Positions 148 through 43,943 are shown, counted from the stretch's first letter. The stretch is DNA of 46,034 nt from Deltaproteobacteria bacterium (GCA_005888115.1 VBKO01000343.1:1-46034); one strand, 5' to 3'. The notes: generated by a model not told the origin, from the sequence alone. Made by a program: numbers and translations.

Positions 148-1437
148 TCAATGGCGCCGGACGTTTCGTTCGGGACGCGGTCCCCGCGCGCGACCCGGCG
201 GTCTGACCCGCTGCCCGTCGCCGGCGATCTGTATCTCGACCAGGAACTCCGCCCCACCCGCGCGCCGATTGCGCGCGGTGATCGCGCCGCCGATCCGGCG
301 CATCGTGCTCTGGGCGAGCCAGAGTCCCAGCCCGGTACCCGCCTTGCCCTTGGTGGTGAAGAACGGCTGGAAGAGCCGCGGCAGGTGTTCCGGCCCGATT
401 CCCGTCCCTTCGTCGGCGATGGTCACCCGCACGCGGTCGCGGGCCCGCTCGGCGCTGACGTGCACCGTTCCCCCGTCCGGCATCGCATCGCGTGCGTTGA
501 AGAGCAGGGTGACGAAGAGGTGGGACAGCTCGGCACCGCTGCCGAGGACCAGTGGGAGATCGGGGACGTCCGTGCGCACCTCGACGGGCGCCGCGCCGGG
601 CGGCTGGCGAAGGTGCAGGACCCCGATCGCCTGCCGCAGCACTTCCCCCAGGTCCACCGGTCCGGGCTCGAGTCGGCCGGATCGCGCCACGTCGTGCAGC
701 TTGCGCACCGACTCGAGGGCAGCCTCGATGCTCTCCTGGAGCCCCACCACGAGTGGCCCGTACTCCGCCATCACGCGCGTGTCGCGGGTGAGCACCGCCG
801 TGCGCGTCGTCACTCCGCGCAGCGTGTTTCCCAGCTCGTGCGCGATCGAGGAGGCCAGCTCGCCGAGGATGCTCATGTGCTCGCTCTGGAAGAGCGCTTC
901 GCGCATGTGCGACAGCTCTTTTTCTGCCCGGGCTTGCTCGGTCACGTCCTGCGCGAGGACGACGACCGGCGAGGCGACCGCGTCGATCCGCTCCAACCGG
1001 AGCTCCACCACCTGTTCCCCGTGCATGCTGCGGTACCGCCGCACCACCACCGAGGGCGCCCGCTCGGGCAACTGTCTGGCCTCGGCCACCGCGGCCTGCG
1101 ACAGGCGCATCCAGGTGGTGCTCGGAACCTTGCCCTCGCGCATCCATCCGCCGCGCGCAATGTCCAGCTCGTGCCAGCGGGCGTTGCGGGTGGTGATGGC
1201 GCCGTCCTTCACCAGCGCGAGACCGCTCGCAGTGACGTTCAGCGCCCAGAAGCCGAGCCGGTAGACGGCGCTGCCGCCGCCCGAACGTTGCTGCACGAGC
1301 TCGCTGGTCCGCACCTCGAGCCGGCGCACCAGCGCGGCGTACTTGCGCGAGAGATCCAGGTATTTCGCGCGGAGGTCCACCAGGACGTCCGGCTCGGCGC
1401 TCTCGGCGGCATCAGCGATGTTGCGCTGGTCGCGCAT
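148..1437 (-). CDS. PAS-containing sensor histidine kinase
   Basis: 429-aa ORF; H-box-like region '[19 protein letters not shown]', HATPase motifs '[13 protein letters not shown]', '[33 protein letters not shown]'. Confidence 0.9.
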
Positions 1438-3415
1438 CGTTCTCCCTCAACCTGGCAATCTCCGCCTGGAGCGCGGCCATCCGGCTCATGTCCTCCAACA
1501 TGAGGACCGCCCCGAGAGGCGCGCCACCGTCCACGATCGGCACTGCCGCGAGCGTCGCCTTCCCGAGCCCGCCGTTGGGCAGCTCGTAGTCGAGCTCCTC
1601 CGAGCGGGTCCCGAGGTTCTGCGCCAGTGCCTTGCTCACCTTCGCCAGCACGCCGCGGTTCAGCGCCGGAATGTGAAGCGTCCACAAGACCTGCCCGACC
1701 GCCTCGCCCTCGGTGAGCCCGAGCAGTCGCTCGGCTGCGAGGTTCCACACGATGATCTTGCCCGACCCGTCGAGGACGATCAGCGCCGCGGACAGGCTGC
1801 GGATGATCACCCGCTGGTTGAATGCCAGCTTGTTCATCTCCTCGGTACGATGCGCCAGCTCGCGGTTGGTCGCGTCCAACTCGGCGTTGGTGGACTGCAG
1901 CTCCTCGTTGGTAGTCTCGAGCTCCTCGTTCGTCGACTGCAGCTCCTCGTTGGTCGTCTGCAGCTCCTCGTTGGCGGATTGCAGCTCCTCGTTGGTGGTC
2001 TCCAGCTCCTCGTTCGAGGACTGCATCTCTTCGTTCACGGTCTGCAGCTCTTCGTAGGCCGTCTGACGTTCCTGATTCGCCTGCCGCAGCTCCGATTCCA
2101 TGCGGCGCACGGAGGTCACGTCGTGGACGAGATAGACGAGCCCGGCGTTCTCGCCGGTGGCGTCGCGTAGCGGCGACACCTCGACCGAGAGATGGATCCC
2201 GTTCGGCTCGGAGGCCCGCGCCAACACGCCGTCGCCGCGCTCCCGTTCCGACCGCCCCTCGCGGACCGCCGCAGTCTTTTCGATCAGCAGGTCGCCCGCC
2301 AGTCCCGGGAGGCTCAGCGCGGCCAGCTTCTTGCCGGTCGTTTCGGTCTCCCTGCGATTCCACAGCCTGGCGGCAGCGCCGTTCCAAAGCATGACGGAGC
2401 CATCCAGCGTGGTCGCGATCACCGGCAGCGGGAGCGATTGCAGCACCTCGCGGTGGAATTGATCGATGCTCCCGACCTTCTCCGTCTCCTGGTCGATCTC
2501 GCGCGCGACGCTCTCCTGCTCGAGCAGCCCCACGAGCCGTTCCTGCGAGACCGCGCTGTCGCGCCGCCCATCCTTCCGATAGATGCGGCGCGCCAGATCG
2601 ATCGGCTCGTAGATGCGAGCGGCGAAGGGGATCAGCTCGGACTTTCCGAGCATCAAGATTCCGTGCTGCCGCAGCGCATAGTGGAAGCGCGACAGCACCC
2701 GCTTCTGCAGCGCGGCGTCCAGGTAGATGAAGACGTTGCGGCAGATGAGGAGGTCGAGCCGCGAGATGGGCGCATCGCTGACCAGGTTGTTGATGCCGAA
2801 GATGACGGACCGGCGCAGCTCCTTGCGCACGGCATAGCCGTCGCCCTCTTCGATGAACCACTCCGCCAAGGCCTTCTTGGAAACCGATTCCACCTGGTCG
2901 CGGGCGTACTGGCCTTTGCGCGCGTGCGCGATCGCCTTCTCGTCGACGTCGGTCCCGAAGATTTTCACGTCCTGGTTGCCGAACGAGGGACCCATCGCTT
3001 CGGCGAGCACGATCGCGGCGGAGAACGCCTCCTCCCCGGTCGCGCATCCCGCGCTCCAGACGCGGATCTCCTCTCCTGGCCGCTTTTCCGAGAGCATCTG
3101 CGGGATGGCCTTGGAGGAGAGCTCCTGCCACACTTCCGGGTCACGGAAGAACGAGGTCACCTTGATGAACATCGAGCCGAGCAGGGCGTCGAACTCGGCC
3201 GCATCGCGGTCGAGCAGCGCCCCGTACTCGCGCACGGTGCGCTTGCCCCGATCCTGCATCCGCCGCTGGATGCGCCGGAGCAGCGTCGGACGCTTGTAGT
3301 TGCGGAAATCGAAGTTCCGCGTTTCGCGGATCTTGCGGAGGATCTCCTCGAGGTCGCCGCCAGACGCCGCTTCCTTGCGGGGCTTCTGCTTGGTCGCGCC
3401 CGCGCTCCTCGCCAT
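1412..3415 (-). CDS. CheR-type methyltransferase fused to PAS domains and a TNEELQ coiled coil
   Basis: 667-aa ORF; '[22 protein letters not shown]', '[10 protein letters not shown]' CheR motifs; long '(T/S)NEELQ' heptad-like stretch followed by PAS domain. Confidence 0.92.
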
Positions 3416-3748: not shown

Positions 3749-4687
3749 GTGGTCCGGAACATCGCAACCGCCGCGGCGCTGCTTTGCGCCTGCGGCGCCG
3801 AGTTCATCGAGCCGAATCCACCCCGGCTGGTCCGGAGGCGGGTGGATTACCAGGCCTCTTCGGTGCCCGAGCCCGCCGTCTGGTTGGTGGTCTCGGATCT
3901 ATTCCTCGAGCACGACGAGGACTGCGCCGCCACCGTGGCGTGGCTCGGCGCCTCCATCCGCGGGGCGGTCCCGGCCTCCGTCCCGGGCAGGCTCGAGCTG
4001 CCGGTGGTCCAGACCTCTCCCTGCACGCAGCCGAACTCGCGCGCGATCGACCCGTCGGCGATCGACGCTGCGCTTCGCGGTGCCGAGGCCGCGTTCCCGG
4101 GCCGCTCGGTGCGCGCGGTGATCGTCTACGCAAACAACGTGCTCGCCACCGTGCCGGGACAGATCGCCTCGGCGCTGGACGCGGCGCGAAAGCTCGCGGT
4201 CGCTCGCGGCGCGCTGGAGCCGCGGATGTGGGCGCTTCTTCCCGGCGGTCTCGCCACGGGCGTCCGGGCGGATCGCACCGTGACGTGGACGTACGCCGGG
4301 GATCCGGCCCTCGCGCGCCAGCTCGCCGACGTCGCGGCCCAGGAGCTGCCCTTCACCTCGGATGCCGCGCTGGTCACTCCGCCGCTGACGCTGTTCGCTA
4401 GCGGCCCGGATGGCGTCCGCGTCTTCAAGGTGTGCAAAGTCGACCCCGCCGTCCAGCTCCTCGGGTTCGCGGGAGACGGGACCTCGGTGGCCGTCGACTC
4501 CGCGGATCCGCCGGAGTACCGCGTCACGCTCGCGCCCCGATTCGCGCTGCCGCGCTCGGAATTCCAGGTGCAGCACGCCGGCCTCGAGGTGGAGGCCTGC
4601 ATCGATCATTGCGACCGGTACCACGGCGACGATCGGGTGCGGTGGCTGACGAGGCCAGGCTGCGTGTTGCCGGGAGCGTCCTCATGA
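3749..4687 (+). CDS. Predicted lipoprotein, first gene of MotAB/FliFG-like cluster
   Basis: GTG start with GGAGGG upstream; signal peptide and lipobox 'ALLCAC|GAEF'; rest of ORF supported by high-GC coding pattern. Confidence 0.75.
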   Translation: MVRNIATAAALLCACGAEFIEPNPPRLVRRRVDYQASSVPEPAVWLVVSDLFLEHDEDCAATVAWLGASIRGAVPASVPGRLELPVVQTSPCTQPNSRAIDPSAIDAALRGAEAAFPGRSVRAVIVYANNVLATVPGQIASALDAARKLAVARGALEPRMWALLPGGLATGVRADRTVTWTYAGDPALARQLADVAAQELPFTSDAALVTPPLTLFASGPDGVRVFKVCKVDPAVQLLGFAGDGTSVAVDSADPPEYRVTLAPRFALPRSEFQVQHAGLEVEACIDHCDRYHGDDRVRWLTRPGCVLPGASS

Positions 4688-5262
4688 GGATCTTCCTCCT
4701 CCTCCTCTTCTGCTCGCTCGGCGCGCGCGCCCAGGCCTTCCGGGTCGAGCCGCGGTCGTTCGTGAAGCAAGGGCATTTCTTCACCTCCTTGGGCGGCACC
4801 TGGCTGGAGCGCGGGGACTACTGGCTCAATCCGGGCTTGTCGTTGTCGGCGGCGTACTACCCGACCGAGAGCGGCGGCGCCGAGGTTCGCGTGCTGTGGT
4901 TCTTCTCCTCGCTGAGCGAATCGGCCCGGCAGATCAGCGCGGCCACCGGGTTCGTGCCCGACGCGCGGAGGCCAGAGGCCCTCGCGCTCGCCGGATGGCG
5001 GCAATCGCTCACCTACGGAAAAGTCGCGCTCGCAGGCGGCGCCGTGCATTTCGATCTCCAAGGGGCGTTGCACGGCGGCGGCCTCTTCACCGACCGGGGA
5101 TTCGCGCCTGCCGTCTCCGCCTCGGCGGGGATCCTGGCCCGGCTGAACCGGTGGGTATTCCTCCAGCTCGACCTCGGTCTCCTCCTGTCCTTCGAGCAGC
5201 GCCAGCGCAGCGGCGCGGCGCTGGGCCTCTTTCCCCTCCTCTCCGCGGGAGCCGAGCTGTGA
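4684..5262 (+). CDS. Outer-membrane beta-barrel protein (OMP_myx_plus-like)
   Basis: ATGA overlap with previous gene; signal peptide 'MRIFLLLLFCSLGARAQA'; alternating barrel-like strands 'GLSLSAAYYPTESGGAEVRVLWFFSSL'. Confidence 0.7.
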   Translation: MRIFLLLLFCSLGARAQAFRVEPRSFVKQGHFFTSLGGTWLERGDYWLNPGLSLSAAYYPTESGGAEVRVLWFFSSLSESARQISAATGFVPDARRPEALALAGWRQSLTYGKVALAGGAVHFDLQGALHGGGLFTDRGFAPAVSASAGILARLNRWVFLQLDLGLLLSFEQRQRSGAALGLFPLLSAGAEL

Positions 5263-6779
5263 TCGCGCTCCTCTTGGCGGTCGCTGCCGCGCCCTTCGCG
5301 GACGCCTTCTGGGACCGCGATCTCGGTGCCCTCGCCCGCGAGCTTCTGGAACACCGCGGGGCGGCGCAGGCGGCGCTCTTCGAGGATCTCGTCCGCCTCT
5401 GCGACTGCGAGACGCTCGCGCCGCTGGAGACGCCGGACCCCCTCCGGCAACTGGTGCGCATCGAGGCTGCCCGCGGGGCGCGGCTCGGCGCGAAAGGGGG
5501 CGCTTCGGAGACGCTCTGGCGTGACCTGCTCCGCAAGGACTTCTTCCGCCGCGACCCGCGCAATCCACCGCTCGAGAACGCATTGGCCTGGCCGGACGAG
5601 GAGGAGCTCTGGACCGGCGAGATCCGCGTCGTGGAGGCGCCCCGCTGGCGTTGCGACCAGCCGGCGCCCCCGCCTGCCGCCCAGGACGACACGGGTCTCG
5701 CCGGCGCGCTGCGCACGGCGGGGTATCGCGAGGCGGCCTCCCGGTTCGCGTACCACCGCGCCTCGCGGCTCCTGGCCCGCGGCGAGAAGACCGCGGCGGC
5801 CGAGCAGGCGCGCGGCATCGATCCGGCGGCGCTCGGCGAGCTCGGGCATTGGGCCGCCCTGCTGCGCATCCAGCTGGGCGCCGACGGACCCGGGGAAGCC
5901 GTGGCGCTGGCGCGCGCCTGGTCGGGCCCGCAGTCGCTGCCGGCGCGCGCGCTGGCTGCCGACCATCTCGCCCGCCAGGGCCGCTGGCCGGAGGTGGCCG
6001 AGCTCGCCGAGGGAGCCGAAGGATCCGATCGCGCGCTGCTCGACCACGTCCGACTCCTCCGGGTCCGTGCGCTGGTCGAGCTCTCCCGGCGCGAGGAAGC
6101 GGTAGCGGCGGTCCCTCGCGACACGCGCTCCGAGCTGGCGCGCGACCTGGCGCTGGAAGCGGTGGCGGGCCGGCCGCTGGATGCCGCATCGATCGAGCTG
6201 CTGTCGGCGCTGTGGCCCGATCCCGCGGACGCGTTCGCCAAGGTGGCCGAGCGCGCGCTGTTCGCCGGAGCGCTCGAGGTGGCGCGCTCCGCGGCGGCGG
6301 CGATTCCGGGATCGGGAATGCGGGCGCGCATCGTCGAGGCGGAGCTGGCGTTCGCGGCCGGCGACCGCGCGGCGTTCCAGGCGTCGCTCGCGCGCCTCAC
6401 CACTGCGCAGGGCCCGCGCATCTCCGAGCGGCTTGCCCGCGGCCGCGCGGCAGCCGAGCTGGCCGGCGCATTGGCTTCGCTCGCGCCGACGGCCCCCGCG
6501 CTCCGCCGGGAAGCCGCCGCCGCCATCGATTCGCTCGCGGAGCAGTACGGCGGAAGCATCGGCCGCGAGCTCGCAACCGCCGTCGCCGCCCTGCGGACGC
6601 GCAACGCTGCCTCCGCCGGCGTGGTGCGAATCGCAGCTCCGTTGCCGGTTCCGGACCTGCCACAGGTCCTGGTGAGCTGGCCCGAGCCGCGCTCCTTGCT
6701 CGCCATCCCGGACGGCGAAGGCGGCTTGCGCGACTGGTTCCCCGCGCAGGCGGCGTTCGCCGGAGGTCCTTCGCCATGA
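5259..6779 (+). CDS. Exported alpha-helical repeat (TPR-like solenoid) protein
   Basis: GTGA overlap with previous gene; signal peptide 'VIALLLAVAAAPFADA'; Ala/Leu/Arg-rich helical repeats through the ORF. Confidence 0.7.
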   Translation: MIALLLAVAAAPFADAFWDRDLGALARELLEHRGAAQAALFEDLVRLCDCETLAPLETPDPLRQLVRIEAARGARLGAKGGASETLWRDLLRKDFFRRDPRNPPLENALAWPDEEELWTGEIRVVEAPRWRCDQPAPPPAAQDDTGLAGALRTAGYREAASRFAYHRASRLLARGEKTAAAEQARGIDPAALGELGHWAALLRIQLGADGPGEAVALARAWSGPQSLPARALAADHLARQGRWPEVAELAEGAEGSDRALLDHVRLLRVRALVELSRREEAVAAVPRDTRSELARDLALEAVAGRPLDAASIELLSALWPDPADAFAKVAERALFAGALEVARSAAAAIPGSGMRARIVEAELAFAAGDRAAFQASLARLTTAQGPRISERLARGRAAAELAGALASLAPTAPALRREAAAAIDSLAEQYGGSIGRELATAVAALRTRNAASAGVVRIAAPLPVPDLPQVLVSWPEPRSLLAIPDGEGGLRDWFPAQAAFAGGPSP

Positions 6780-7963
6780 CGGTCGTGCCCCTCCTCGCCA
6801 CAGCGCTCGTGGCGCAGGCCGTTCCTCCGGACTTCAAGGGCGACGATCCGCGCTCGACGGGGTCCGCCCAGGCCGCCCCCGCGGCGGCGCCGAAAACGCC
6901 GGGGCAGCCGCCCCCGGACGTCCCCGAGGGTTCCGACATCCAGTCTCGCAAACGCCCCGAAGCCCCTGGCGCGGCCACGGAGAAATACCTCGCGCCGAGC
7001 GGCGCGGCGATCGACGCCAACGACATCCTGGACGAGATGCTCGACCAGCTGGCAGCGGACGTCGCGCGGCTGGGACCTTTGCGCATCGGCCCCATCCTGC
7101 TCGAGCGGGTCCGGCTGTCCGACAACCTGAACCCCGACTTCGCCCCGGTGCTGGAAGCGCGGCTCGCGGCGTCGGTCGCGCGGACGACCGAAGTCGCGTT
7201 GCTTCGCTGCGCCGAGTGCTGGGCGACCCGCGGAAGGCTCGAGAACGGCGCCTGGGTGGTGAGCCGCGGCGTCAACCGGAAGGAGGAGATCGCAGCCGTC
7301 GCGCAGAAGTACGCGGCGCGAACGCTCCTCACCGTGGCGCTCACGCTCCTCGACGAGCCCAGCACCTTGGCGATGGACGTGGAGCTGGTGCACGCGGACG
7401 ATTCGTCGATCGCCTTCGCGGAGCAGTACCGCATGAACCCGGAGACCGCGCTGCTCTATCGAGGCGTCGACCGCACCCAGTCGCGGTTCAAACGGCTCAA
7501 GGAGCTGCAGGACCGCATCGACCAGCGGCCGCGGTTCAGCCACGAAATCGATTTCGGGACGATGGGCCTGTCCGCCTCGGGTTCGCTGAACTGGGGCGCC
7601 CTCGCACGCTACGCGCTGACCGAGCAGTTCGGCGAGAACGGCGCCGGCGACGCGGGCATCGAGGCCGGCGGATACGTGAACACCTCCCTCTTCTCGACCG
7701 GCCTGGTCGGCGGCGTGTTGCGGCTCCGCCTCGGCGGAGCGCAGGTCTTCTCCTCCGAGGTGCGGCTCGTTACGCACGCCGGCGCGCTGCTCACCGCCGG
7801 CGCGACCAGTTTCTACGGGGGTGCGGGCCTGCGGCTCAAGCCCGCCATCCGGGTCACGATCTTCGCCATGCTCGACTACGTGGCGCCGTTCCAGGTCCGC
7901 AAGGACGGACCCAAGTACGGCGAATTCGCTCCGCAGCTGGGGCTGGGGTTCACATGGCCATGA
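6776..7963 (+). CDS. Exported protein with FlgO/CsgG-like N-terminal domain and C-terminal beta-barrel
   Basis: ATGA overlap; N-terminal region 'LAADVARLGPLRIGPILLERVRLSDNLNPDFAPVLEARLAASVARTTEV...' followed by barrel-like C-terminus ending 'FAPQLGLGFTWP'. Confidence 0.6.
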   Translation: MTVVPLLATALVAQAVPPDFKGDDPRSTGSAQAAPAAAPKTPGQPPPDVPEGSDIQSRKRPEAPGAATEKYLAPSGAAIDANDILDEMLDQLAADVARLGPLRIGPILLERVRLSDNLNPDFAPVLEARLAASVARTTEVALLRCAECWATRGRLENGAWVVSRGVNRKEEIAAVAQKYAARTLLTVALTLLDEPSTLAMDVELVHADDSSIAFAEQYRMNPETALLYRGVDRTQSRFKRLKELQDRIDQRPRFSHEIDFGTMGLSASGSLNWGALARYALTEQFGENGAGDAGIEAGGYVNTSLFSTGLVGGVLRLRLGGAQVFSSEVRLVTHAGALLTAGATSFYGGAGLRLKPAIRVTIFAMLDYVAPFQVRKDGPKYGEFAPQLGLGFTWP

Positions 7964-8588
7964 ACAGAGGCTGGGTCCTCTTCGTCCTCTGCGCCTGCTC
8001 GGCGGTGCAGCCGAGGCGGATGGTGGTGCCGGAAGGAATGCGCAGGGAGGCGCAGCCGCTGCCGCGGCCGGAGAACAAGCCCCCCACGCCGGCATTGCAG
8101 GGCGCGCTGCAACCGGCCGCGGCCACCCGGGCGCAGGACGGCCGGTACGTGCTGCGGCTCGCCGAGCACAACCGCGTCTGGGAGCTGGAGCTGCCCGAGT
8201 CGGCCGGCGGGTACGAGATGCGAATCCCCTTGGACGGCCCCCTCGAATCGCCGACCGCGGCCGACGCCGAGCTGCTCGCGGCCGCGCCGGAGGTCCGGGC
8301 CGCCCCGAACACCGCGGCGGATGCGAAGCCGGACGGCGCCGCCAAGCCGCCCGCCACCGGCACGAAAGCCGACGCTGCCGCGAGGATCCTGGGCAAGAGC
8401 TACTGGTGGAGCTGGTCGATCTGGAGGCTTCGCACCCGAAGGACGCCCGGCTGCAAGCGATGAAGGGCTCCGTCTACCTGAAGCTGGGCAAGGCGCAGCT
8501 CGCGCGCGAGTCGTGGCAGAAGGCGCTCGCGCTCGATCCCGAGGACCCCGCCGTGGCCGAGGCGCTGCGGACGCTCAAGGAGGAGTAG
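7960..8588 (+). pseudogene. TPR lipoprotein whose reading frame is interrupted (frameshift near 8370-8410)
   Basis: ORF from 7960 has lipobox 'LFVLCAC|SAVQ' and ends at 8463 in atypical 'YWWSWSIWRLRTRR'; the TPR 'ELVDLEASHPKDARLQAMKGSVYLKLGKAQLARESWQKALALDPEDPAVAEALRTLKEE' is in another frame to 8588. Confidence 0.6.
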
Positions 8589-8590
8589 GC

Positions 8591-9370
8591 ATGCACGTCG
8601 TCATCGGCCTGTTGGGCCTCGTCGCGGTGCTCGCGGCGACGGTCACCACCGAGGGCTCGCATACTTTCACGGGCTTCCTCCACCGGCCCGCGCTGCTGCT
8701 CCTCATGCTGGCGCCGCCGTTCGTGGCGCTCACCTCGTACCGACCGGAGGAGCTGTGGGAGACCGGGCGGGCCGTGCTCCGCGCCATCCGGCGAGCGCCC
8801 TCGCGCGCGCGGGCGGCGCTCTACGAGGACCTGTCGCGATTCGCCGCCGAGCACCGCCGTGGGCGTCCGGCCGAGGCGCTCGCGGTGGCGGAGTCGTCCG
8901 AACATCCGCTCTTCCGCCAGCTGGCCCCGCTGGTCGTGCGGCAGTACGCGGCCGGCGAGATCGAGCGGACCGCGGGAGCGGCGGCGTACTGCCTCTCCTC
9001 GTCGCTCAAGCGCAGCGAGGACGTGCTCACCTCTCTCGCCCGCGTGGCGCCGGCGATGGGCCTGGTGGGGACCACGCTGGGGCTGATCGGGTTGCTCCGC
9101 GATCTCTCGAACTTCACGCAGCTGGGCCCCTCCATGGCCCTGGCGCTGCTCTGCACGCTGTACGGACTGGTGCTGGCGAACGGCCTCTACCAGCCGCTCG
9201 CGCGCATGGTGCACGCGCACTCGCTGACCTGCGCCGAGGACGCGCGCCTGTTGACCCGGGCGCTGGCCCTGCTCGCGGAGGGGAAGCCCGTCGCCGACGT
9301 GCGCAACCTGTTCGAGGCCACGGCGGGACAGGCGGAGCTGCGGATCGAGACCGGCGGAGCTGTGGGCTAG
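8591..9370 (+). CDS. MotA-like stator protein (proton channel)
   Basis: 'PAMGLVGTTLGLIGLLRDLSNFTQLGPSMALALLCTLYGLVLANGLYQPLARM' matches MotA TM3/TM4 pattern; early 'FLHRPALLLLMLAPPF'. Confidence 0.88.
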   Translation: MHVVIGLLGLVAVLAATVTTEGSHTFTGFLHRPALLLLMLAPPFVALTSYRPEELWETGRAVLRAIRRAPSRARAALYEDLSRFAAEHRRGRPAEALAVAESSEHPLFRQLAPLVVRQYAAGEIERTAGAAAYCLSSSLKRSEDVLTSLARVAPAMGLVGTTLGLIGLLRDLSNFTQLGPSMALALLCTLYGLVLANGLYQPLARMVHAHSLTCAEDARLLTRALALLAEGKPVADVRNLFEATAGQAELRIETGGAVG

Positions 9371-9372
9371 CC

Positions 9373-9993
9373 ATGGACGATCTCACTGCGCCGGCCGAAC
9401 CGCAGCAGGACGAGCTCTGGCTGATCAGCTACGCCGACCTGCTCAGCCTGCTGGTCGGGTTCTTCATCATGATCATCGCGGCGGTCCCGATGCGTCAGGC
9501 GACCTTCGAGCGCATCGCGGCGGCCATCTCCGGGAGCAAGTCGGCGCCGCTGCAGCAGCTGCGCGAGCGCGTGGAGGATCTGGTGGCGAAGAGCCCCGAG
9601 CTGCGCGACCGCGTGATCGCCCGCGACGACGCGGAAGGCCTGGGCATCGAGTTCAAGGACGCGCTGCTCTTTGATTCGGGATCCGCGGACGTGCGCCCGG
9701 AGGGGCGGCGGGCGATCGGCGAGGTGGCGCGGCTCTTGGGGACGTTGCCCGCGCGTCCGGTGCTGGTCGAGGGACACACCGACGAGGTGCCCATCCGCAC
9801 CGCGCATTTCCATTCCAACTGGGAGCTGTCCTCGCAGCGCGCGATCAACGTGCTGGCGGCGCTGGAGGGGAGCGGCATCCCCCGCGAACGGTTGTCCGCA
9901 CGCGCGTTCGCGGACACGCGGCCGCGCGACGTACAGGGAACGATCGAGGAGCGGCGCCTCGCCAACCGGCGGGTCGTCGTCCGTGTGGAGTAG
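9373..9993 (+). CDS. MotB-like stator protein with OmpA peptidoglycan-binding domain
   Basis: 'ELWLISYADLLSLLVGFFIMII' (MotB plug/TM with conserved Asp) plus OmpA-like 'VEGHTDEVPIRTAHFHSNWELSSQRAINVL'. Confidence 0.92.
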   Translation: MDDLTAPAEPQQDELWLISYADLLSLLVGFFIMIIAAVPMRQATFERIAAAISGSKSAPLQQLRERVEDLVAKSPELRDRVIARDDAEGLGIEFKDALLFDSGSADVRPEGRRAIGEVARLLGTLPARPVLVEGHTDEVPIRTAHFHSNWELSSQRAINVLAALEGSGIPRERLSARAFADTRPRDVQGTIEERRLANRRVVVRVE

Positions 9994-9995
9994 CC

Positions 9996-11630
9996 ATGCT
10001 CATCCTTCTGGCAGCGGCGGTTGCGCTCACGCCCGCTTCGCGCCTGCAGCGCGACGCTGAGGACAAGGCCCGGGCCGAGATGACCGATCTCTTCCGCGCG
10101 CTCTGCCCCGAGCAGTGCGTGCTGCTTTCCATCCAAGCGCGGGTCGAGGAGGAAGCGGTGGGGACGGCCGACCCGGGATTCGACGCTCCGGGTGACTTGA
10201 AGGCGCCCGTCCTCAAAGGAGCGACGGCCGGAGTGCTGCTCGACGCAAAGCTGCCGCCCGCCTTCCGCGGCAAGGTGCGGGACCTGGTGGCGCAGCGCCT
10301 GCGCGCGTTGGGGGTCCCGGCGCAGGTCGCGATCCAGGCGGTGCCCTTCCCTGTGCGCAACCCGACGCACCTGGAGGCGCCGCCGCCCGCGCCCCAGATG
10401 CCGCCGCCGGCCGTTCCGCCGGCACAGGCGGCGCAGCCGGAGGCAAAACCGATCAGCGCACGAGACCGCCTTCTCGAGGAGGCGCCTGCGCTCGCCGCCG
10501 CGGCGCTCTTCGCCATCGTGGCGCTGGCGCTCGGCGCTTTGCTGTACCTCGCCACGCGCCGCGCGCAGGAGCCTGCCTGGGAGCTGGAGCCCGCGGCTCC
10601 GCCGGATGCGGCGGGCGCGGGCCGGCCGGCTACGTTCTCCGAGTCGCGGCGGCGCAAGCTGGAGAAGGCGCTCGCCGACGAGCGCGCGGTGCGCAACTCC
10701 GTCGTCCGCGAAGCGCTGACCCGCGGCGAGATCGATCTCGTGGCACGCTGGGTGCGCGAGCTGGGCGAGTTCCTGCTCCAGGACCTCGGCTCGGACGGCG
10801 CCATCGCGCAGGCGGTATCGGCGGTGGCCGCGCAGGTGGGCCGCGTGGCTCCCGATCCGTCCGCCCTCACCGAGCTGGAAGGCAGGTTGATCGGCGCGAG
10901 GCTCGCCCGCGCCGCCGAGAACGCCGACGGCGCATTCGCGTTCCTGGAAGGAGTGCGGCCCGACGCCTTCGCCGCGGCTTGCCGGGACCTCTCGCCGGGC
11001 GCACTCGACGCCGTGGTCCGGTTCGCGCCGTCGAGGCTCCGCGCAGCGGCCTTGCAGGAGCTGTCCACCGAGCAACGGCGCGAGCTCGCGCTCGCCTGGG
11101 CGCGGCGCCCCGAGGTGCCCGCGTCCTACGCGCTCGCCGCCGCCGACGAGCTGCGCGAGCGGCTGGAGCGGATGGGCGGCGGTCCGCGGCAAGCCGAGAG
11201 CGCGATGAGCGACCTGCTCGACTCGCTGGGGCGCGACGAGCAGGACGTCCTGCTCGAGCGGCTGCGGCGCGAGGGCGACGGCCGATCCGCGCGCGCCTTG
11301 GTCACCGAGTCTGCGCTGGGCGGCGTCCCCGCTGACGTGCTCGCTTCGGTGCTCCTCCGCGTCGATCCGGCGCGGGTCGTCGCCTACCTGGCCGGGGCCG
11401 ACCCGGGTCTGCGGCAGAAAGTGCTCGGCGGTTGCCCGGCGCGGCTCCGTCGCGAGCTGGAGGAGGAGCTGCAGCTGCGCGGATCCTCGACGCCGGCGGA
11501 GTTCCTCGACGCGCGCCGGGAGATCCTCGCGCGGCTGCGTGACGAGACGGCGCGCCGCAACATCTCATCCGCCGAAGTTCGTGGCTGGTCGAACGGCGCC
11601 GCCGAGCGCGCGCGCCTGGCGGCGGAGTGA
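9996..11630 (+). CDS. FliF C-terminal-like / FliG-like fusion protein
   Basis: Signal-like N-terminus, single central TM 'LAAAALFAIVALALGALLYLATRR', then FliG-like 'SAMSDLLDSLGRDEQDVLLERLRREGDGRSARAL' and 'LASVLLRVDPARVVAYLAGADPGLRQKVLGGCPARLRRELEEELQLRGSSTPAEFLDARREILARLRDE'. Confidence 0.68.
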   Translation: MLILLAAAVALTPASRLQRDAEDKARAEMTDLFRALCPEQCVLLSIQARVEEEAVGTADPGFDAPGDLKAPVLKGATAGVLLDAKLPPAFRGKVRDLVAQRLRALGVPAQVAIQAVPFPVRNPTHLEAPPPAPQMPPPAVPPAQAAQPEAKPISARDRLLEEAPALAAAALFAIVALALGALLYLATRRAQEPAWELEPAAPPDAAGAGRPATFSESRRRKLEKALADERAVRNSVVREALTRGEIDLVARWVRELGEFLLQDLGSDGAIAQAVSAVAAQVGRVAPDPSALTELEGRLIGARLARAAENADGAFAFLEGVRPDAFAAACRDLSPGALDAVVRFAPSRLRAAALQELSTEQRRELALAWARRPEVPASYALAAADELRERLERMGGGPRQAESAMSDLLDSLGRDEQDVLLERLRREGDGRSARALVTESALGGVPADVLASVLLRVDPARVVAYLAGADPGLRQKVLGGCPARLRRELEEELQLRGSSTPAEFLDARREILARLRDETARRNISSAEVRGWSNGAAERARLAAE

Positions 11631-11632
11631 CC

Positions 11633-12601
11633 ATGCGCGCCTTTCTCGTAGCGCTCTGCGTCGCGGTCCTCTCCGGGTGCCTCGCCCCCCCGCCCGAGGA
11701 TCCGCCGGTCACGATCGCCCCTCCTCCGCCACCTCCGCCGCCGCCGCCTCCGATCGGTCCACCGCCGCCTCCTCCTTTCCTGGTGTGCGGACGAACGAAG
11801 ATCCTCGATACGGGCGGCCATGGCGGCTTCCCCGGCAGCGGGCTCGGGCAGGACGGCGGGACGGGCCAGCTCTGGCTGGTGCGCATCGATCGCGGCACCG
11901 CGAATCTGGCGCAGTCGATCCAGACACTGATCCAGCGCACCACCGGCGCTCTTCGCGACGCGCGGCTGTCGCCGCGCGGCATCGCAGTGGTGTCGCTCTA
12001 CGACGGAGCCGTGGTCTGGTCGACGTCGAACGCGAGCCGGGACCCCCTGAGCAACATCGCGACCTTGCTGAGCGCCCGCGCCGCGTTCGACAACCCGGCG
12101 CCAGCGGGGTGCCCAACGTTCCAGCTCCTGGACGTCGGACGGCGGCTCTCGGAGATCGGACCGCCGGCGAACCCGTTCGCCATCCGCCCGGGAGCGCTGC
12201 TGGTCGGCATGGTCGACCACGGCGCGCGGCCGGCGCCGCTCGCGAGCTGTGGAGATCCAGCGGGGGCGCTCTCCGCGGACATCGCCTGCTGGGCGTCGTT
12301 CGGCTCCGTCGTCCTGCAGCGGGCCGACTTCCGCTTCGGCTTCTTCGCCACGCCTGAAACCGGAACGACCCAACAGATGAAGACCAGCTGTCTCGCCGTG
12401 CCGGGTCTACCTTCGACGACCATCGACTCGTTCGAGGCGTCGGACTTCGCCTTCTACGACCCGCTCGCGCAGCAGATGGAGCAGCGCCAGCCGGGCCTCG
12501 CCGCCCGATTCGACCTGTGCCGCGCGTTCGGGTCGGACGCGCCCGTGCAGCTCGCCACGTTCGCGAATACCTGGGCCCAGCTGCTGGCCGCACAACCGTG
12601 A
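11633..12601 (+). CDS. Proline-rich lipoprotein
   Basis: Lipobox 'VAVLSGC|LAPP'; 'APPPPPPPPPPPIGPPPPPP' tract; WLVRIDRG...-type domain. Confidence 0.75.
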   Translation: MRAFLVALCVAVLSGCLAPPPEDPPVTIAPPPPPPPPPPPIGPPPPPPFLVCGRTKILDTGGHGGFPGSGLGQDGGTGQLWLVRIDRGTANLAQSIQTLIQRTTGALRDARLSPRGIAVVSLYDGAVVWSTSNASRDPLSNIATLLSARAAFDNPAPAGCPTFQLLDVGRRLSEIGPPANPFAIRPGALLVGMVDHGARPAPLASCGDPAGALSADIACWASFGSVVLQRADFRFGFFATPETGTTQQMKTSCLAVPGLPSTTIDSFEASDFAFYDPLAQQMEQRQPGLAARFDLCRAFGSDAPVQLATFANTWAQLLAAQP

Positions 12602-13197
12602 AACGGGCGCTGCCACAGCTCGCCCGACGTGCGCCGGCCCGGCGGCGACTGCCGGCCGGCGCGCGCCGGACGATCGGCGCGCGTCGCATCGCCCCGCCGG
12701 GGCGCTTTGCACCTCCACGGCGGAAGCGAAGTCGCTCAGGCATCGCAGCTGCCGCGGTGCTGGGCCTCGCGCTGCTCGCGTGGATCTTCTGGCCCTCGCC
12801 GTCGCCGCCACCCGGCGCTCCTCCTCCCGCGCCCGCCCGGGCCGCCGACGTCATGACCCCGAAGGAGCCGCGCAAGGTCCGCGCCCGCCGGCCGCTGCCG
12901 CCGCCGCCCGCCGCGCCGGCGCAACCCGACGTCGACGAGGCGCGCGTCCGCGCTGCCGTCCTCGCCCGGGCCGCGAGTCTCCGCGCCTGCGCCGTCCCCG
13001 CGGGCGCGCCCAGCCAGATCCCGGTCCGGCTGCGGGTGCCGGCGTCCGGAGAAGTGCGCTCGGTCCAACTCGGCGGACCCGAGCCGCTCCCGGCGGCGCT
13101 CTCCGGATGCCTGCGCGAGAAGCTCCTGCTCTGGCGATTCGACGACCTGCACCTGTCGTCCGATGTAGACGTGTTCGCTACATTCGCGCTTCGCTGA
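12598..13197 (+). CDS. Single-pass TonB/AgmX-like protein
   Basis: GTGA overlap; TM 'SGIAAAAVLGLALLAWIFW', Pro-rich linker, C-terminal 'IPVRLRVPASGEVRSVQLGGPEPLPAALSGCLREKLLLWRF' resembling TonB/AgmX C-terminal domains. Confidence 0.65.
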   Translation: MKRALPQLARRAPARRRLPAGARRTIGARRIAPPGRFAPPRRKRSRSGIAAAAVLGLALLAWIFWPSPSPPPGAPPPAPARAADVMTPKEPRKVRARRPLPPPPAAPAQPDVDEARVRAAVLARAASLRACAVPAGAPSQIPVRLRVPASGEVRSVQLGGPEPLPAALSGCLREKLLLWRFDDLHLSSDVDVFATFALR

Positions 13198-22487: not shown

Positions 22488-24896
22488 TCACTCCGCGCTC
22501 AGCGCCGCCATCGGGTCGATCCGCGCGGCGCGCAGCGCCGGAATGCCGCTCGCGGCGAGCGCCACGACCGCCAGCAGCGCGGCGATGGCTGCGAGGGTGA
22601 GCGGGTCGCGGGCGCTCACGCCGTAGAGTTGGGAGGCGATCAGACGTCCTCCGGCGAGCGCTGCGACGGTGCCCAGGCACAGGCCGAGGCCCACGGTGCG
22701 CAGCGCGCTCGCCAGCACCAGCCGGATCACCGCGCCCGCGGACGCACCAATCGCCATGCGCACGCCGATCTCGCGGGTCCGCTGCGTGACCGCGTACGCC
22801 GTGACGCCGTAGATGCCGACCGCCGACAGCGCCAGCGCGAGCGCGGCGAAGACTCCGAGCAGCTGCAGCGGAAACCGGCGCGGCGCGAGCGATGCCGCGA
22901 GCACGTCCTCGAGCGGCAGGACGCGATCGAGAGGCCGCGCGGGATCGATGCGCGACAGCTCGCTGCGCAGCGCGGCCGGCGTGAGCTGGCCGCGCACCAC
23001 CAGCGTCATCCAGTCCGGGGGCTCCTGGGCGGCGGCGAGGTAGAAGACGGGTGGCACCGGCTGGTCGAGACCGTGCTCGCGCGCGTCGGCCACGACCCCG
23101 ACGATCGTGCGCCACCCGTTCCGGGCGCGATCGGTGTCGATCTGGAGGCGCCGCCCGACCACGTCGCGCCCGGGGAGGTAGCGCCGCACCCACGCCTCGT
23201 TGACCAGCACGACCGGGGGCGCCTTGGCGTCATCGGCCATGGAGAAGTCCCGTCCCGCCACCACGCCCTGGCGCATGGCGCTGAAGTAGCCGGGCAGTAC
23301 GCAGCGGAACTCGTCGGTCGGAGGAGCCTCGCCGGGGCGCAGCTCGTATCCCTCGATGAAATACGTCTGTCCGAACTTGCCGCGGGTCGGGAGCAGGTTG
23401 ATCCCGCCGGCGGCGGTCACGCCGGGGACCTCCGAGGCGACCCGGAGCGCCCGTTCGAAGTAACGCTCGCGCGCGTCAGGATCCGCGTACGAAGGTCCCG
23501 CGGGCGCAAGCTCGGCGGCGATGGCGCCTTGGGGCTCGAATCCCGGCGAGACGTGCAGGAGCCGCCCGAAGCTGCGCAGCAGCAGACCGGCGCCGGTCAA
23601 GAGGAAGAGGCACACCGCGACCTGCGCGACCACCAGCACGGCGCGCAGCCGGGCAGCGGGCGCGCCCGCGGTGCCCCGCCCGCCGTCCTTGAGCGAGGCG
23701 GCCAGACCCACCCGGCTGGCGCGGAGCGCCGGCATCAGCGCGAAGATCAACGTGGTCGCGATCGTCAGTCCCGTCGAGAAGGCGAGCACGGCGCGATCGA
23801 GGCGCACGTTCGCCAGCTCGCGGATCTGCCGCGGCGCCGCCGCGAGCAGCGCGTCGAGGCCCCACCCCGCGAGCAGCACCCCGAGCGCCGCGCCGATCGC
23901 GGCGAGCAGAAACCCTTCCGTCAGCAACTGGCGGACGATCCGCGACCGTTCCGCTCCCAGCGCGGCGCGCAGCGCGAACTCGCGCTCCCGCGCCGCCGAT
24001 CGCGCGAGCAACAGATTCGCCACGTTGCCGCAGGCGATCAGCAACACCAGCAGCACCGCTCCGAACAGCACCAGGATGGGCTGGCGGCTGGATGCCACGA
24101 AACGTTCTCGCAGCGGCTCGAGCTTGAGCGTCGCCTGCAGCTCGGCGGGATAGTCCCTTGGGTGCGCTTCGCTCATCCGTCCCACGTGCTCCTCGAGCGC
24201 CTTGCTTGCGGCCTGAAGGCTGACCCCGGGCCGGAGCTTCGCGACGACGTCGAGGTAATGGGCCCCGGGCTCGTCGAAACGCTGCGTCTGCGTGAAGCCG
24301 TACGGAATGAAGAAATCGTGCGCGCCGCCGTAGCTGAAACCTTCCGGCAGGACGCCGATGACGGCGTAGCTCCGGCCGTCCAGCACGACCGACCGGCCGA
24401 CGGAGGTAGGATCGCCACCGAAGCGCCGGCGGAATGCCGGAGCGCTCACCAGCGCGACACCGTCGTTGCCCTTCATCTCCTCGTCCGGGCCGAACACGCG
24501 CCCGAACTGCGGGCGCACGTCCAGCACGCTGAAGAACCCGGACGTCACGCGCGCGACCGGCAACCGCTCTGCGCCATCGGCACGCTGCAGCGCTGCCGTC
24601 GCGCCGTTGAAGGAACCGACGCTCTCGAAGAAGCGCGCTTCGCGAAGATCGTACAATTCAGCGATGGAGAGCCTGCCCTTGCCGGTGCCGATCCCCGCGA
24701 ACAGGCGGTAGACGGAGACGAGCCGGGTCTCCTCGCCCCAGCCGAACGAGCGCAACAGCACCGCGTGCACGACGCTGAAGATGGCGGTGGTCGCGCCGAT
24801 CCCCAGCGCCAGCGCGAGCACCGCCGCGGCAGTGAACCCGGGCGTGCGGAGCAGGCCGCGGAGCGCAAAGCGGAGATCGCGAAGCAGTCCGTCCAT
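22488..24896 (-). CDS. MacB/ADOP-like ABC transporter permease
   Basis: '[48 protein letters not shown]' and two FtsX-like permease blocks. Confidence 0.9.
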
Positions 24897-25039
24897 GAAG
24901 TCTCTCCGTTCGCAGGGCAGTCCTCGCCTGCCGCGCCGTCCGTAGAGCGAAGTTCGTGCCAACCATTGCCCGAGAGCGCGCCCGCACACGTCTGACCGGG
25001 CCGGGGAAAGCCCGTCCCATTTTCGAACACTGCTGAGCG

Positions 25040-25960
25040 CTATCCAGTCAGGTGCTCGAGGTGCGCCGCGACGCTGCGGGCCAGCGCACCCAGGTCGTAG
25101 CCTCCCTCGAGCATGGAGACGATGCGCCCGGCGCTGTATCGCGCCGCCACCGTCCGCACCTGCTGCGTCACCCAGGCGTAATCGGCCTCGACCAGGCGCA
25201 GCATGGCCATGCCGTCGTCGCGGTGCGCATCGAATCCGGCGGAGACGAAGATCATCTCCGGCTGGAAGCGTCCGAGGGCCGGCAGCCACTCCCTGGTGAC
25301 GGCGGCGCGGAACTCGTCGCTCGCGGCGCCGGCCGGGAGAGGGACGTTCACCATGCGCTCCGACCGGCCCTCGACGCCGCTCCCCGGATAGAACGGATGC
25401 TGGAAGGTCGACACCATCAGCACGCGCGAGTCGTCGCGGAAGATGTCCTCCGTGCCGTTGCCGTGGTGCACGTCGAAATCCACGATCGCCACCCGGCGCA
25501 GGCGGTGGTGCTCAAGCGCGTGCGCCGCGGCGACCGCCACGTTGTTGAAGAAGCAGAAGCCCATCGCGCGCGCCCGCTCGGCGTGGTGCCCGGGCGGGCG
25601 CACGCTGCAGAACGCCGCCTCCGCCTTCCGGGCGATCACCAGATCGGTGGCGAGGATCCCGGCGCCCGCGGCGCGCAGCGCCGCTCGCAGCGTGCCCGGA
25701 CACATCGCGGTGTCCGGATCGATCCAGGTCAGCCCCTCAGCAGGCGAGAGCCGCTCCAGCTGGTCGATGTATGCCGCGTCATGCACGCGCAGGAGCTGCT
25801 GTCGCGTCGCCTCCGGCGCGTCCGCGCGGACAACGGAGCGGTCGAGCCTCGAGGCGAGCAGCGTCTCCTCGATCGCCGACAACCGTTCCGGCCGCTCCGG
25901 GTGCCCCTCGCCCATCTGGTGCCGCAGGCATGCGGGATGGCTGATGAACGCGATGGACAC
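25040..25960 (-). CDS. Histone deacetylase-family (acetoin-utilisation-like) protein
   Basis: '[25 protein letters not shown]', '[16 protein letters not shown]', '[10 protein letters not shown]'. Confidence 0.95.
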
Positions 25961-27326: not shown

Positions 27327-28306
27327 TGCGCCAGATCGCATACCAGCGTGCTGGCAGCGTGGACGAGGCGGTGCAAGCAGCCGCGCAGCCAGAGGCGGCG
27401 TTCCTCGCGGGCGGGACCTCCCTGGTCGATCTGATGAAGCTGGAGGTGCTCAATCCCGCGCGAGTCGTGGACGTGACGCGGCTCGATCTCTCACGCATCG
27501 AGCCGAGGGCGGACGGCATCCGGCTCGGCGCCACCGCGACGAACAGCGCCGTGGCGGCGCACCCGGAAGTGAAGCGGCGCTTTCCGGCGCTGTCCCAGGC
27601 GCTGCTCTCCGGCGCGTCGCCGCAGCTCCGCAACGTCGCCACCGTGGCGGGCAACCTGATGCAGAGGACCCGCTGCGCGTACTACCGGGACCTCGCGACC
27701 AGGTGCAACAAGCGCAGCCCCGGCGCCGGCTGTGACGCAATCGAGGGTTGGACGCGGATGCACGCCATCCTCGGCGGGAGCGAGCAGTGCATCGCGCTGC
27801 ACCCTTCCGACATGTGCGTCGCCCTCGCGGCCCTGGAGGCGACCATCCACGTCCGCGGGCAGCGCGGCGAGCGCGACATTCCGTTCGGGGATTTCCACCT
27901 GCTACCGGGCGATCACCCCGAGCGCGAGTTCGCGCTCGAGCCAGGCGAGCTGGTCACCTGGGTGTTCGTGCCGGCCACGGCCGCCGCCGCCCGCTCGCGC
28001 TACGTGAAGGTCCGCGATCGCATCTCGTACGCTTTTGCGCTCGCTTCCTGCGCGACGGCGCTGGAGGTGGCGAACGGAAGGATCCGGGTGGCGCGCATGG
28101 CGCTGGGCGGCGTCGGGACCAAGCCATGGCGCTCCCTGGAAGCGGAGCGCATGCTGGTCGGAGCGACGCCGCGGGCGGAAACGTTCCGCCGGGCGGCCGA
28201 CGTGGCGTTGCGCGACGCCCGCCCGCGGCGCGACAACGCCTTCAAGGTCGAGCTGGCGAAGCGCACCATGATCCGGGCGCTCACCCTTTCCGCGGAGGGC
28301 GCATGA
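27326..28306 (+). CDS. paoB: PaoB-like FAD/4Fe-4S subunit
   Basis: 'FLAGGTSLVDLMKL', Cys cluster 'RCAYYRDLATRCNKRSPGAGCDAIEG'. Confidence 0.85.
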   Translation: MRQIAYQRAGSVDEAVQAAAQPEAAFLAGGTSLVDLMKLEVLNPARVVDVTRLDLSRIEPRADGIRLGATATNSAVAAHPEVKRRFPALSQALLSGASPQLRNVATVAGNLMQRTRCAYYRDLATRCNKRSPGAGCDAIEGWTRMHAILGGSEQCIALHPSDMCVALAALEATIHVRGQRGERDIPFGDFHLLPGDHPEREFALEPGELVTWVFVPATAAAARSRYVKVRDRISYAFALASCATALEVANGRIRVARMALGGVGTKPWRSLEAERMLVGATPRAETFRRAADVALRDARPRRDNAFKVELAKRTMIRALTLSAEGA

Positions 28307-39793: not shown

Positions 39794-41866
39794 CTAGGTG
39801 ACGCCCGCCGCGGACAGGCCGAGGTCGATCGCCTTGATCCCGACGAACGGCGCGACGATGCCGCCCACGCCGTAGACGAATAGCGAGCGGCGCAGCAACG
39901 CCGCGGCGCCGAGCGGCCGATACCGCACGCCGCGCAGCGCCAGCGGGATGAGCAGGACGATGATGACGGCGTTGAAGATGACCGCGGACAGGATCGCGCT
40001 GTACGGGGAGGCGAGGTGCATGACGTCGAGCGGCGCCAGCTCGGGGAACGCGCCGACGAACAGCGCCGGCAAGATGGCGAAGTACTTGGCGACGTCGTTC
40101 GCGATCGAGAAGGTCGTCAGCGTTCCGCGCGTCATCAGAAGCTGCTTGCCCACCTCGACGACCTCCAGCAGCTTGGTGGGATCGGAGTCGAGGTCGACCA
40201 TGTTGCCGGCCTCTTTCGCCGCCTGCGTACCGGTGTTCATGGCGACGCCGACGTCCGCCTGCGCCAGCGCCGGCGCGTCGTTGGTGCCATCGCCGGTCAT
40301 GGCGACGAGCTTGCCCTTTTCCTGCTCTTCCTTGATGAGGCGCATCTTCGCCTCCGGCGTCGCCTCGGCGAGGTAGTCGTCGACGCCGGACTCCTTGGCG
40401 ATCGCGGCGGCGGTGCGCGGGTTGTCCCCCGTGATCATCACCGTGCGGATGCCCATTGCGCGAAAGCGCGAGAACCGCTCCGAGATCCCTCCCTTCACCA
40501 TGTCCTTGAGGTGGATCAGCCCGAGCAGGCGCGCTCCGTCGGATACCGCCAGCGGCGTCCCACCGCCATCGCCGATGCGCCAGGCGGCCTGGACCACATC
40601 GTCAGGCACGGAGCCGCCGAGCGACTGGACGTGCGCGGAGACGGCATCGACAGCGCCCTTGCGGACCCGCCGGTCCGCGAGATCGCACCCGCTCATGCGG
40701 GTGTGCGCAGAGAAGGGGATGAACGTCGCGATCCCCTTCGTCTCCCGTCCACGCAGGCCGTGACGTTCCTTGAGGAGCACCATGATCGAACGGCCTTCGG
40801 GCGTCTCGTCCGCCAGGCTCGCCAACTGCGCCGCGTCGGCCAGCTCGGAAACCGCGATGCCTCGGGCTGGAAGGAGCTCGGTGGCCATCCGGTTTCCCAG
40901 CGTGATCGTCCCGGTCTTGTCGAGGAGGAGCGTGTCGACGTCTCCGGCGGCCTCGACCGCGCGGCCGCTCATCGCCAGCACGTTCTTGCGCAGCAGCCGA
41001 TCCATCCCGGCGATGCCGATGGCCGAAAGGAGCCCGCCGATGGTGGTGGGGATGAGACAGACGAGCAGCGCCACGACGGCGGTCGCGCCGAGGCGGATTC
41101 CCGAATACAGCCCGAGAGGCACGAGCGTCACGCAGGCGAAGAGGAAGACGATGGTGAGGCCGACGAGCAGGATGTGCAGCGCGATCTCGTTCGGGGTCTT
41201 CTGCCGCGCGGCCCCTTCGACAAGCGCGATCATCCTGTCCAGGAACGATTCGCCGGGATTGGAAGTGATGCGCACGACGATGCGGTCCGAGAGCACCTTC
41301 GTGCCGCCGGTCACGGCGGAGCGGTCGCCGCCGCTCTCGCGGATCACCGGGGCGGACTCGCCGGTGATGGCCGATTCGTCGACGGAGGCGATTCCCTCGA
41401 TCACTTCCCCATCGCCCGGAATGAGCTGGTTTGCCTCGACCACCACCAGGTCGCCCTTCTTCAGGCGCGAGGCGGGGAACATCTCCTCGTTGGCGATGGG
41501 AATGACGTCCGGCGGCGGCGGCCAGGTGCGGATCTTCCTCGCGATCGTGTCCTGCCGCATCCTGCGCAGCGTGTCCGCTTGGGCCTTGCCTCGCCCTTCC
41601 GCAACCGCCTCGGCGAAATTCGCGAACAGGACCGTGAACCACAGCCAGAGCGATACCGTCAGGGTAAACCACCGCGGCGCCGCGCCGGGCGCGGGGGTGA
41701 GCACGTCACGTAGCCACACGGCGGTCGTGAGCGCGCTTCCAATTTCCACCACGAACATGACCGGGTTCTTGATCAGGTGCTGGGGAGCGAGCTTGCGGAA
41801 GCTCTCGACGACCGCGGAGCGCAAGATGGCCGCATCGAAGAGCGAGAGCTGCTTTGCCTTGGCCAT
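39794..41866 (-). CDS. kdpB: Potassium-transporting P-type ATPase subunit B
   Basis: '[14 protein letters not shown]', '[21 protein letters not shown]'. Confidence 0.98.
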
Positions 41867-43683: not shown

Positions 43684-43775
43684 GGCGCACCGCCGAGCCG
43701 CTCGCAGAAGCGCACGTACGCCCAGCAGGCTGCGAAGAAGGCGACGGTCGCGAGGACGAGTAGAAGGTCGAGCAT
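43680..43775 (-). CDS. 31-aa transmembrane micro-ORF upstream of kdpF
   Basis: '[31 protein letters not shown]'; GTGA stop/start overlap with kdpF. Confidence 0.6.
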
Positions 43776-43786
43776 GGCCCCTCGCA

Positions 43787-43803
43787 ATGCATCGCGCGTG
43801 CCG
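43787..43803 (-). promoter_or_regulatory. Candidate sigma-54 (-24/-12) promoter for kdp operon
   Basis: Minus strand CGGCACGCGCGATGCAT: GGCACG-N4-ATGCA, GG to GC spacing of 10 nt, compared with consensus TGGCACGN4TTGCW. Confidence 0.5.
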
Positions 43804-43943
43804 CAGACGCTCCGAGGGATCCGGCTGGCGCGCATTGCAGCCTGCAAGATTCCGGCGGTTCCGCCGTGCGAATTGCACGAGTGCGGCGCGGTAACGAGCT
43901 TTCGCCACCGGCGCCACGGCCGACCTGTTACAAGCCGGCGCCG

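Follow-up and report, generated by a model that had tools for sequence, protein, structure and literature searches.

FliG and the flagellar type of MotA/MotB stator have been treated as specific to the flagellum, both in the profiles of Abby and Rocha 2012 (PMC3459982) and in the clade termed FIT, which unites the flagellar stators and leaves the AglRS proteins of gliding in a generic clade (PMC12505986). Here we describe a cluster of ten plus-strand genes that encodes both, together with outer-membrane proteins, at positions 3749-13197 of a 46,034-nucleotide stretch from a Deltaproteobacteria bacterium (the window, meaning this whole stretch, is G000:C568:1-46034; genome G000 comprises 4.73 Mb in 571 contigs). 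We consider it probable that the cluster specifies an envelope-spanning, ion-driven machine whose motor core is of flagellar type, but which is neither a flagellum nor a type III system.

With the flagellar motor core, the cluster shares a MotA of flagellar type, a MotB with plug, ion-binding aspartate and OmpA domains and, in the product of gene 8 (protein 8), the fold of the FliG middle and C-terminal domains. In protein 8 this fold is preceded by a predicted ring motif and a transmembrane helix, the order seen in FliF ring-building motif 3 (RBM3), TM2 and FliG. The cluster differs from that core in having the FliF-like and FliG-like parts in one gene, with no RBM1, RBM2 or beta-collar, and in carrying outer-membrane lipoproteins and barrels within the operon. 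A family scan of the ten genes finds no FliM/N, export-gate, rod, hook or filament genes among them (for rod, hook and filament genes a genome-wide search was not made).

Other described systems resemble the cluster in part. The Agl-Glt gliding machinery of Myxococcus likewise couples an ion-driven, stator-type motor to trans-envelope barrels, lipoproteins and a protein with an AgmX-type tail (PMC13104615), but its AglRQS motor belongs to the generic TolQ/ExbB-like class (PMC12505986) and no FliG-like rotor has been described for it. GldLM, the 5:2 motor of gliding and of the type IX secretion system, drives outer-membrane-associated parts without a flagellum; however, it is not homologous to MotAB (PMC13104615) and has no FliG. 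The Tol-Pal and Ton systems also pass force from an inner-membrane motor to the outer membrane and also use a TonB-type tail, but their stators are of another class and they use no FliG or ring protein. Finally, the non-flagellar type III secretion system (NF-T3SS) of myxobacteria, found in the same phylum and likewise an exaptation of flagellar parts, keeps the export core without FliG and MotAB (Abby and Rocha 2012, PMC3459982), whereas our cluster is the complementary half.

Stator and rotor-like proteins

The ten genes are closely packed, neighbours overlapping or being separated by gaps of a few bases, as a preliminary description made from the sequence of the window had proposed. Pfam matches above cut-off are confined to genes 6, 7 and 8, with none in the other seven. 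The MotA-like and MotB-like proteins named in that description are recovered by three families: gene 6 scores 60 bits against MotA_ExbB (Pfam cut-off 22.9), and gene 7 scores 36.9 bits against MotB_plug (cut-off 24) and 63.5 bits against OmpA (cut-off 27.2). In all 12 gene 7 homologues, the ion-binding Asp22 of MotB and the peptidoglycan-binding motif of the OmpA domain are invariant. Searched against structures in the PDB, the gene 6 profile aligns with PomA/MotA over nearly its whole length at an E-value of about 1e-29, compared with 1e-6 for ExbB and 1e-3 for TolQ.

Phylogenetic analysis places the cluster MotA and flagellar MotA on one side of the tree and all TolQ/ExbB/Agl-type proteins on the opposite side, a split with 100/100 support in two trees, the first of which took paralogues from seven genomes while the second added MotA of Aquifex, Vibrio, Clostridium, Paenibacillus and Bacillus, with 8 flagellar sequences sampled. 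In the best tree the eight flagellar MotA sequences form a clade (95/95) to which the cluster MotA is sister. The approximately unbiased (AU) test rejects a placement of the cluster MotA with myxobacterial flagellar MotA (p = 0.0015), and therefore the cluster protein was not derived from the flagella found in Myxococcota; nesting with PomA is not rejected (p 0.13), and the long branches call for caution. These sequence comparisons support a stator of flagellar rather than TolQ/ExbB/Agl type, in agreement with the preliminary claim that the motor parts are flagellar-type and not Tol-type.

Protein 8 is related to FliG, by sequence profile as well as by fold. Its FliG_C match scores 41.8 bits (cut-off 23.3), and the same family is matched by 12 of 14 gene 8 homologues at E<=0.1. 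A phmmer search of the protein against the PDB returns FliG as top match (E 0.0027); with the gene 8 family profile the match to FliG reaches E 1.4e-8 and, at profile positions 325-532, spans both its middle and its C-terminal domain. We built an AlphaFold2 model of protein 8 from 8 sequences (pLDDT 68, pTM 0.41), for which FliG structures occupy each of the top 13 places among the Foldseek matches in the PDB (best E 4.3e-6). The model and the FliG C-terminal domain can be superposed at rmsd (root mean square deviation) 1.8-1.9 and TMt 0.73-0.78, and one of the structures aligned in this way is the FliG in 8ucs, a MotAB-FliG complex.

Kinship to FliF is likely, as judged from the modelled fold and the order of domains. 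The model comprises a helix (13-36), two strands (41-54 and 69-83), a helix (88-103), a strand (109-116) and a long helix (155-189), followed by all-helical repeats, and FliF ring structures, which match its N-terminal domain, stand at Foldseek ranks 15 and 18 (probability 1.00 and 0.99, E 0.05-0.08). The alpha-beta-beta-alpha-beta order is the topology of FliF RBM3, in which a beta-collar is inserted (PMC11481574); the modelled ring-motif domain does not have this insert. The architecture of ring-building motif, transmembrane helix and FliG is present in all full-length homologues examined. Thus, of the FliF-C/FliG-like fusion first suggested for this gene, the FliG half is confirmed by family score and fold, while the FliF-C half stands as a predicted fold, order and topology. 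An invariant or nearly invariant cysteine pair, CPEQC, is seen in the exported domain in the alignment of homologues, and is likely to form a disulfide or a metal site.

Conservation of the block and flagellar genes in its carriers

Genomes of Myxococcota are referred to by labels such as G000, and f1 denotes the window's own family. Relatives with sufficiently long contigs have all ten genes in one order, as do Archangium lansinium and genomes of a second genus of the family of A. lansinium. Distant genomes, one in the same class (G165) and two elsewhere in the phylum (G069, G076), keep the genes at about 20-45% identity, and their order, where the contigs show it, is genes 4-10 followed by genes 1-3. 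This rearranged order is also found in G072, a genome left out of profile building, which has nine of the ten genes with gene 4 doubled; G187 retains divergent copies of genes 4-8. Because flanking genes change between genera, and are shared only by closely related species of one genus, we take the unit to be these ten genes; no conserved extra neighbour was found in the loci compared. The recurrence of the whole ten-gene block makes it more than a chance arrangement, and the expectation that the neighbours are conserved together holds across the phylum.

The cluster is found in 17-19 of 197 genomes of the phylum, with a patchy distribution, and the block has apparently been moved or lost as one. 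Its carriers are some soil myxobacteria and their relatives, including other families and classes of Myxococcota. Among 384 genomes of relatives, about half of them from outside the phylum, no match lay outside Myxococcota, other phyla being only sampled, and a scan of named genomes gave 7 loci, all in Myxococcota or Deltaproteobacteria records.

None of the eight f1 genomes with the cluster has FHIPEP (PF00771, FlhA/SctV), which is present in G004 and G006, two f1 genomes without the cluster. FliMN_C (PF01052) was looked for in seven of the f1 genomes with the cluster (G000, G001, G002, G003, G005, G007, G008) and is missing from each, the cluster's own FliG_C is the only one above cut-off in G000, G003, G036 and G085, and YscJ_FliF_C (PF08345) has no match in G000, G003 and G085. 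We stress that the assemblies of f1 genomes are drafts, 61-100% complete; any single absence is therefore weak, and the evidence lies in the agreement over eight genomes. In family f1, this agreement indicates that the cluster belongs to neither a flagellum nor a type III system, in line with the initial description of a locus without a flagellum. Indeed, the homologous loci lie outside flagellar gene clusters, their flanks being unrelated. Elsewhere, Archangium-group genomes have one or two FHIPEP proteins. G072 has flagellar FliF and FlhA on contigs other than that of its cluster, from which it follows that cluster and flagellum can coexist.

Proposed machine and competing explanations

On the reading we prefer, MotA and MotB, expected at 5:2, would conduct ions at MotB Asp22 while held to the peptidoglycan by the MotB OmpA domain, and MotA5MotB2 would work against the FliG-like region that protein 8 exposes to the cytoplasm. 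Through its periplasmic ring-building domain, protein 8 probably forms an inner-membrane ring, and a single polypeptide would then serve as both FliF and FliG. Protein 10, which is TonB/AgmX-like, and the exported protein 3 would bridge the periplasm; lipoproteins 1, 5 and 9 and barrels 2 and 4 would form the outer-membrane end, and by way of these parts movement or force would reach the outer membrane or the surface of the cell. In such a machine the lipoproteins and barrels may stand where a flagellum has rod and hook, as the preliminary description supposed. The use would most likely be surface motility or active remodelling of the outer membrane. The composition of this machine is supported and its motor activity, that is rotation and work at the outer membrane, is plausible; ring formation, rotation, force transfer and biological role are steps that we infer from the parts.

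Several observations weigh against this reading. In FliG, EHPQ is the FliM-binding motif. EHPQ is absent from the FliG-like part of protein 8, and the torque-helix charges of FliG are not conserved across the gene 8 family, in both respects a departure from the flagellar rotor. These two differences agree with the lack of FliM/FliN and are a warning that the surface for coupling is not the same, and since neither feature is conserved, the canonical electrostatic coupling, a MotA-FliG charge interaction described in PMC12505986, cannot be assumed. The confidence of the protein 8 model is moderate, and hhalign of the gene 8 profile against real FliF is not significant (probability 0.8%, E 0.066), the start of RBM3 being aligned in register. 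Within the window, gene 5 is broken by a change near 8400 (8380-8420) that splits the tetratricopeptide repeat (TPR) lipoprotein into two frames; the gene is intact in relatives, and the break may have arisen either in assembly or by true mutation.

The unconserved torque-helix charges would also suit a Tol/Ton-like transducer, in which MotAB would supply energy to the outer membrane, for stabilisation or uptake, by way of protein 10 and the lipoproteins. The FliG-like part would then be no more than an adaptor or a scaffold for the ring, without being turned by torque. The AgmX/PglI-type tail in 9 of 13 gene 10 homologues fits such a device, as does the predominance of lipoproteins and barrels in the operon. 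However, the stator is of flagellar and not TolQ/ExbB type, a fusion of ring motif and FliG has no obvious job in a Tol-type device, and that architecture has been kept in every full-length homologue examined; we regard the transducer as rather unlikely. A machine for surface motility or adhesion, equivalent to Agl-Glt gliding and moving lipoproteins or adhesins along the cell, would be a specific version of the flagellar-type motor that we favour, so that the probabilities of the two overlap, and we put it forward tentatively, as a possible but not the expected case. It draws on the occurrence of the cluster in gliding lineages (A. lansinium), on the likeness to Agl-Glt in parts and on the lack of any GltG match above the curated cut-off in f1 genomes. 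Against it, Archangium-group cluster genomes carry full-score GltG, so the cluster is not a replacement there; apart from the AgmX tail common to both and a weak match to GltG (E 0.08), nothing in the cluster matches a Glt family, and its distribution is patchy.

We find it very improbable that the locus is the remnant of a decayed flagellum, with leftover motAB, fliG and fliF pieces lying beside unrelated envelope genes. The homology of the core parts to flagellar ones and the broken gene 5 speak for a remnant, but throughout the phylum the ten genes stay together and are strongly conserved, descent from myxobacterial flagellar MotA is rejected by the AU test cited above, and G072 has the cluster in addition to a separate FliF/FlhA set. 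Least credible of all is a secretion system related to the secretin-less myxobacterial NF-T3SS: the phylum is shared and protein 8 has a FliF-like ring motif, but the f1 cluster genomes have no FlhA/SctV, and the NF-T3SS was described without FliG and MotAB, the reverse of this set (PMC3459982). The missing export gate argues against a secretion role in general. Type III systems and 'hat-like' complexes (PMC9380563) were set aside because the f1 cluster genomes are without export genes. Zorya defence, with its long-tailed ZorA and its ZorC/D/E partners, was also rejected, PADLOC giving only generic ZorB (MotB) matches to gene 7.

If the flagellar-type machine is real, it would be a new kind of ion-driven envelope motor and, as a motor without an exporter, the complement of the type III secretion system in flagellar evolution. 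We think it unlikely, but worth stating, that the cluster is a surviving descendant of a lineage that diverged from that of the flagellar motor very early, or before there was a flagellum: a MotAB-FliG pair of stator and rotor that drives parts of the outer membrane and at no time possessed export gate, rod or filament. Were this true, a torque core could exist without the type III export machine and may have had an origin separate from it. The machine can be tested in a cultured species, A. lansinium. Our search of the literature on non-flagellar FliG/MotAB systems, FliF-FliG fusions and the flagellar genes of myxobacteria, outside which subscription papers mostly lay, returned no description of the cluster, and within the literature searched the cluster is apparently undescribed.

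Envelope proteins and neighbouring genes

Table 1. Genes of the cluster and neighbouring genes, with positions in the window
Feature	Position	Strand	Description
Gene 1	3749..4687	+	Cys-rich exported protein, probable lipoprotein; no known family
Gene 2	4684..5262	+	Small outer-membrane beta-barrel, TIGR04565-like
Gene 3	5262..6779	+	Exported, probably alpha-helical repeat; GTG start; no family match
Gene 4	6776..7963	+	Signal peptide, then a conserved soluble domain (invariant Cys pair) and, at the C-terminus, an outer-membrane barrel of 8 strands
Gene 5	7957..8588	+	Lipoprotein with C-terminal TPR; frame broken in window, intact in relatives
Gene 6	8591..9370	+	MotA-like stator subunit, flagellar type; full-length alignment with PomA/MotA
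Gene 7	9373..9993	+	MotB-like: plug/transmembrane segment, invariant Asp22 in SYAD, OmpA-type peptidoglycan-binding domain
Gene 8	9996..11630	+	Rotor-like fusion: exported domain of alpha-beta-beta-alpha-beta order (ring-building motif), Pro-rich linker, transmembrane helix ~155-189, cytoplasmic FliG-like armadillo region
Gene 9	11633..12601	+	Lipoprotein (LSGC lipobox), Pro- or Gly-rich low-complexity linker, conserved C-terminal domain; no family
Gene 10	12598..13197	+	Inner-membrane-anchored, Pro-rich periplasmic protein, TonB/AgmX-type tail, two invariant Cys
Upstream genes	148-3415	-	CheR/PAS-type methyltransferase-sensor and histidine kinase, divergent from the cluster
Neighbour	22491-25412	-	MacB/FtsX-type permease
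Neighbour	27787-30501	+	Molybdopterin-binding aldehyde/xanthine dehydrogenase-type large subunit
Neighbour	39797-41866	-	P-type ATPase
Neighbour	43767-46001	+	Amino-acid permease

The lipoproteins expected from the preliminary description are found, their lipoboxes being directly visible in the sequences of genes 1, 5 and 9, although gene 5 is the frame-broken one. The gene 1 lipobox reads L-C-A-C in the window and V-L-G-C in Archangium, and over 11 homologues the protein has 12 invariant columns, 6 of them cysteine. For gene 5, a TPR is found in the homologue at locus L030. Gene 3 is conserved at 23-49% identity; its product, an exported solenoid in the preliminary description, is probably an alpha-helical repeat.

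Two outer-membrane barrel-like proteins had likewise been foreseen. Gene 2 matches TIGR04565 (NCBIfam) at 46.9 bits (E 2.8e-12), under the curated cut-off of 60, and the gene 4 model is confident for barrel residues ~254-394, whose 8-strand fold matches NspA, Ail, OmpX and OprF. The N-terminal domain of gene 4 is modelled at low confidence; a CsgG/FlgO-like H-ring was considered for it and rejected, with no Pfam match in 11 homologues, no PDB profile match and a low-confidence model in that region. In G072, gene 4 is present as two tandem divergent copies (L127 818-3152), which suggests a hetero-oligomeric outer-membrane assembly in that lineage.

Gene 10 encodes one transmembrane segment and a Pro-rich stalk ahead of its tail, for which the AgmX/PglI match (NCBIfam) is weak alone (E 0.0023) and reaches 7e-6 in the best homologue; the TonB/AgmX-like protein of the preliminary description is upheld by the homologues that match. 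Invariant cysteines are seen in alignments of the exported domains of genes 1, 4 (Cys145/148) and 10, and these are likely disulfides or metal sites.

Of the two genes divergently upstream of the cluster, that at 1412-3415 is not conserved beside it elsewhere. GltG-like paralogues lie about 8-15 kb from the cluster at G002:C176:31795-33711 and G085:C1:3143478-3145313; this proximity is inconsistent across genomes, and we treated it as coincidence rather than as a linked feature. The dehydrogenase subunit, the two permeases and the ATPase listed in Table 1 are ordinary genes.

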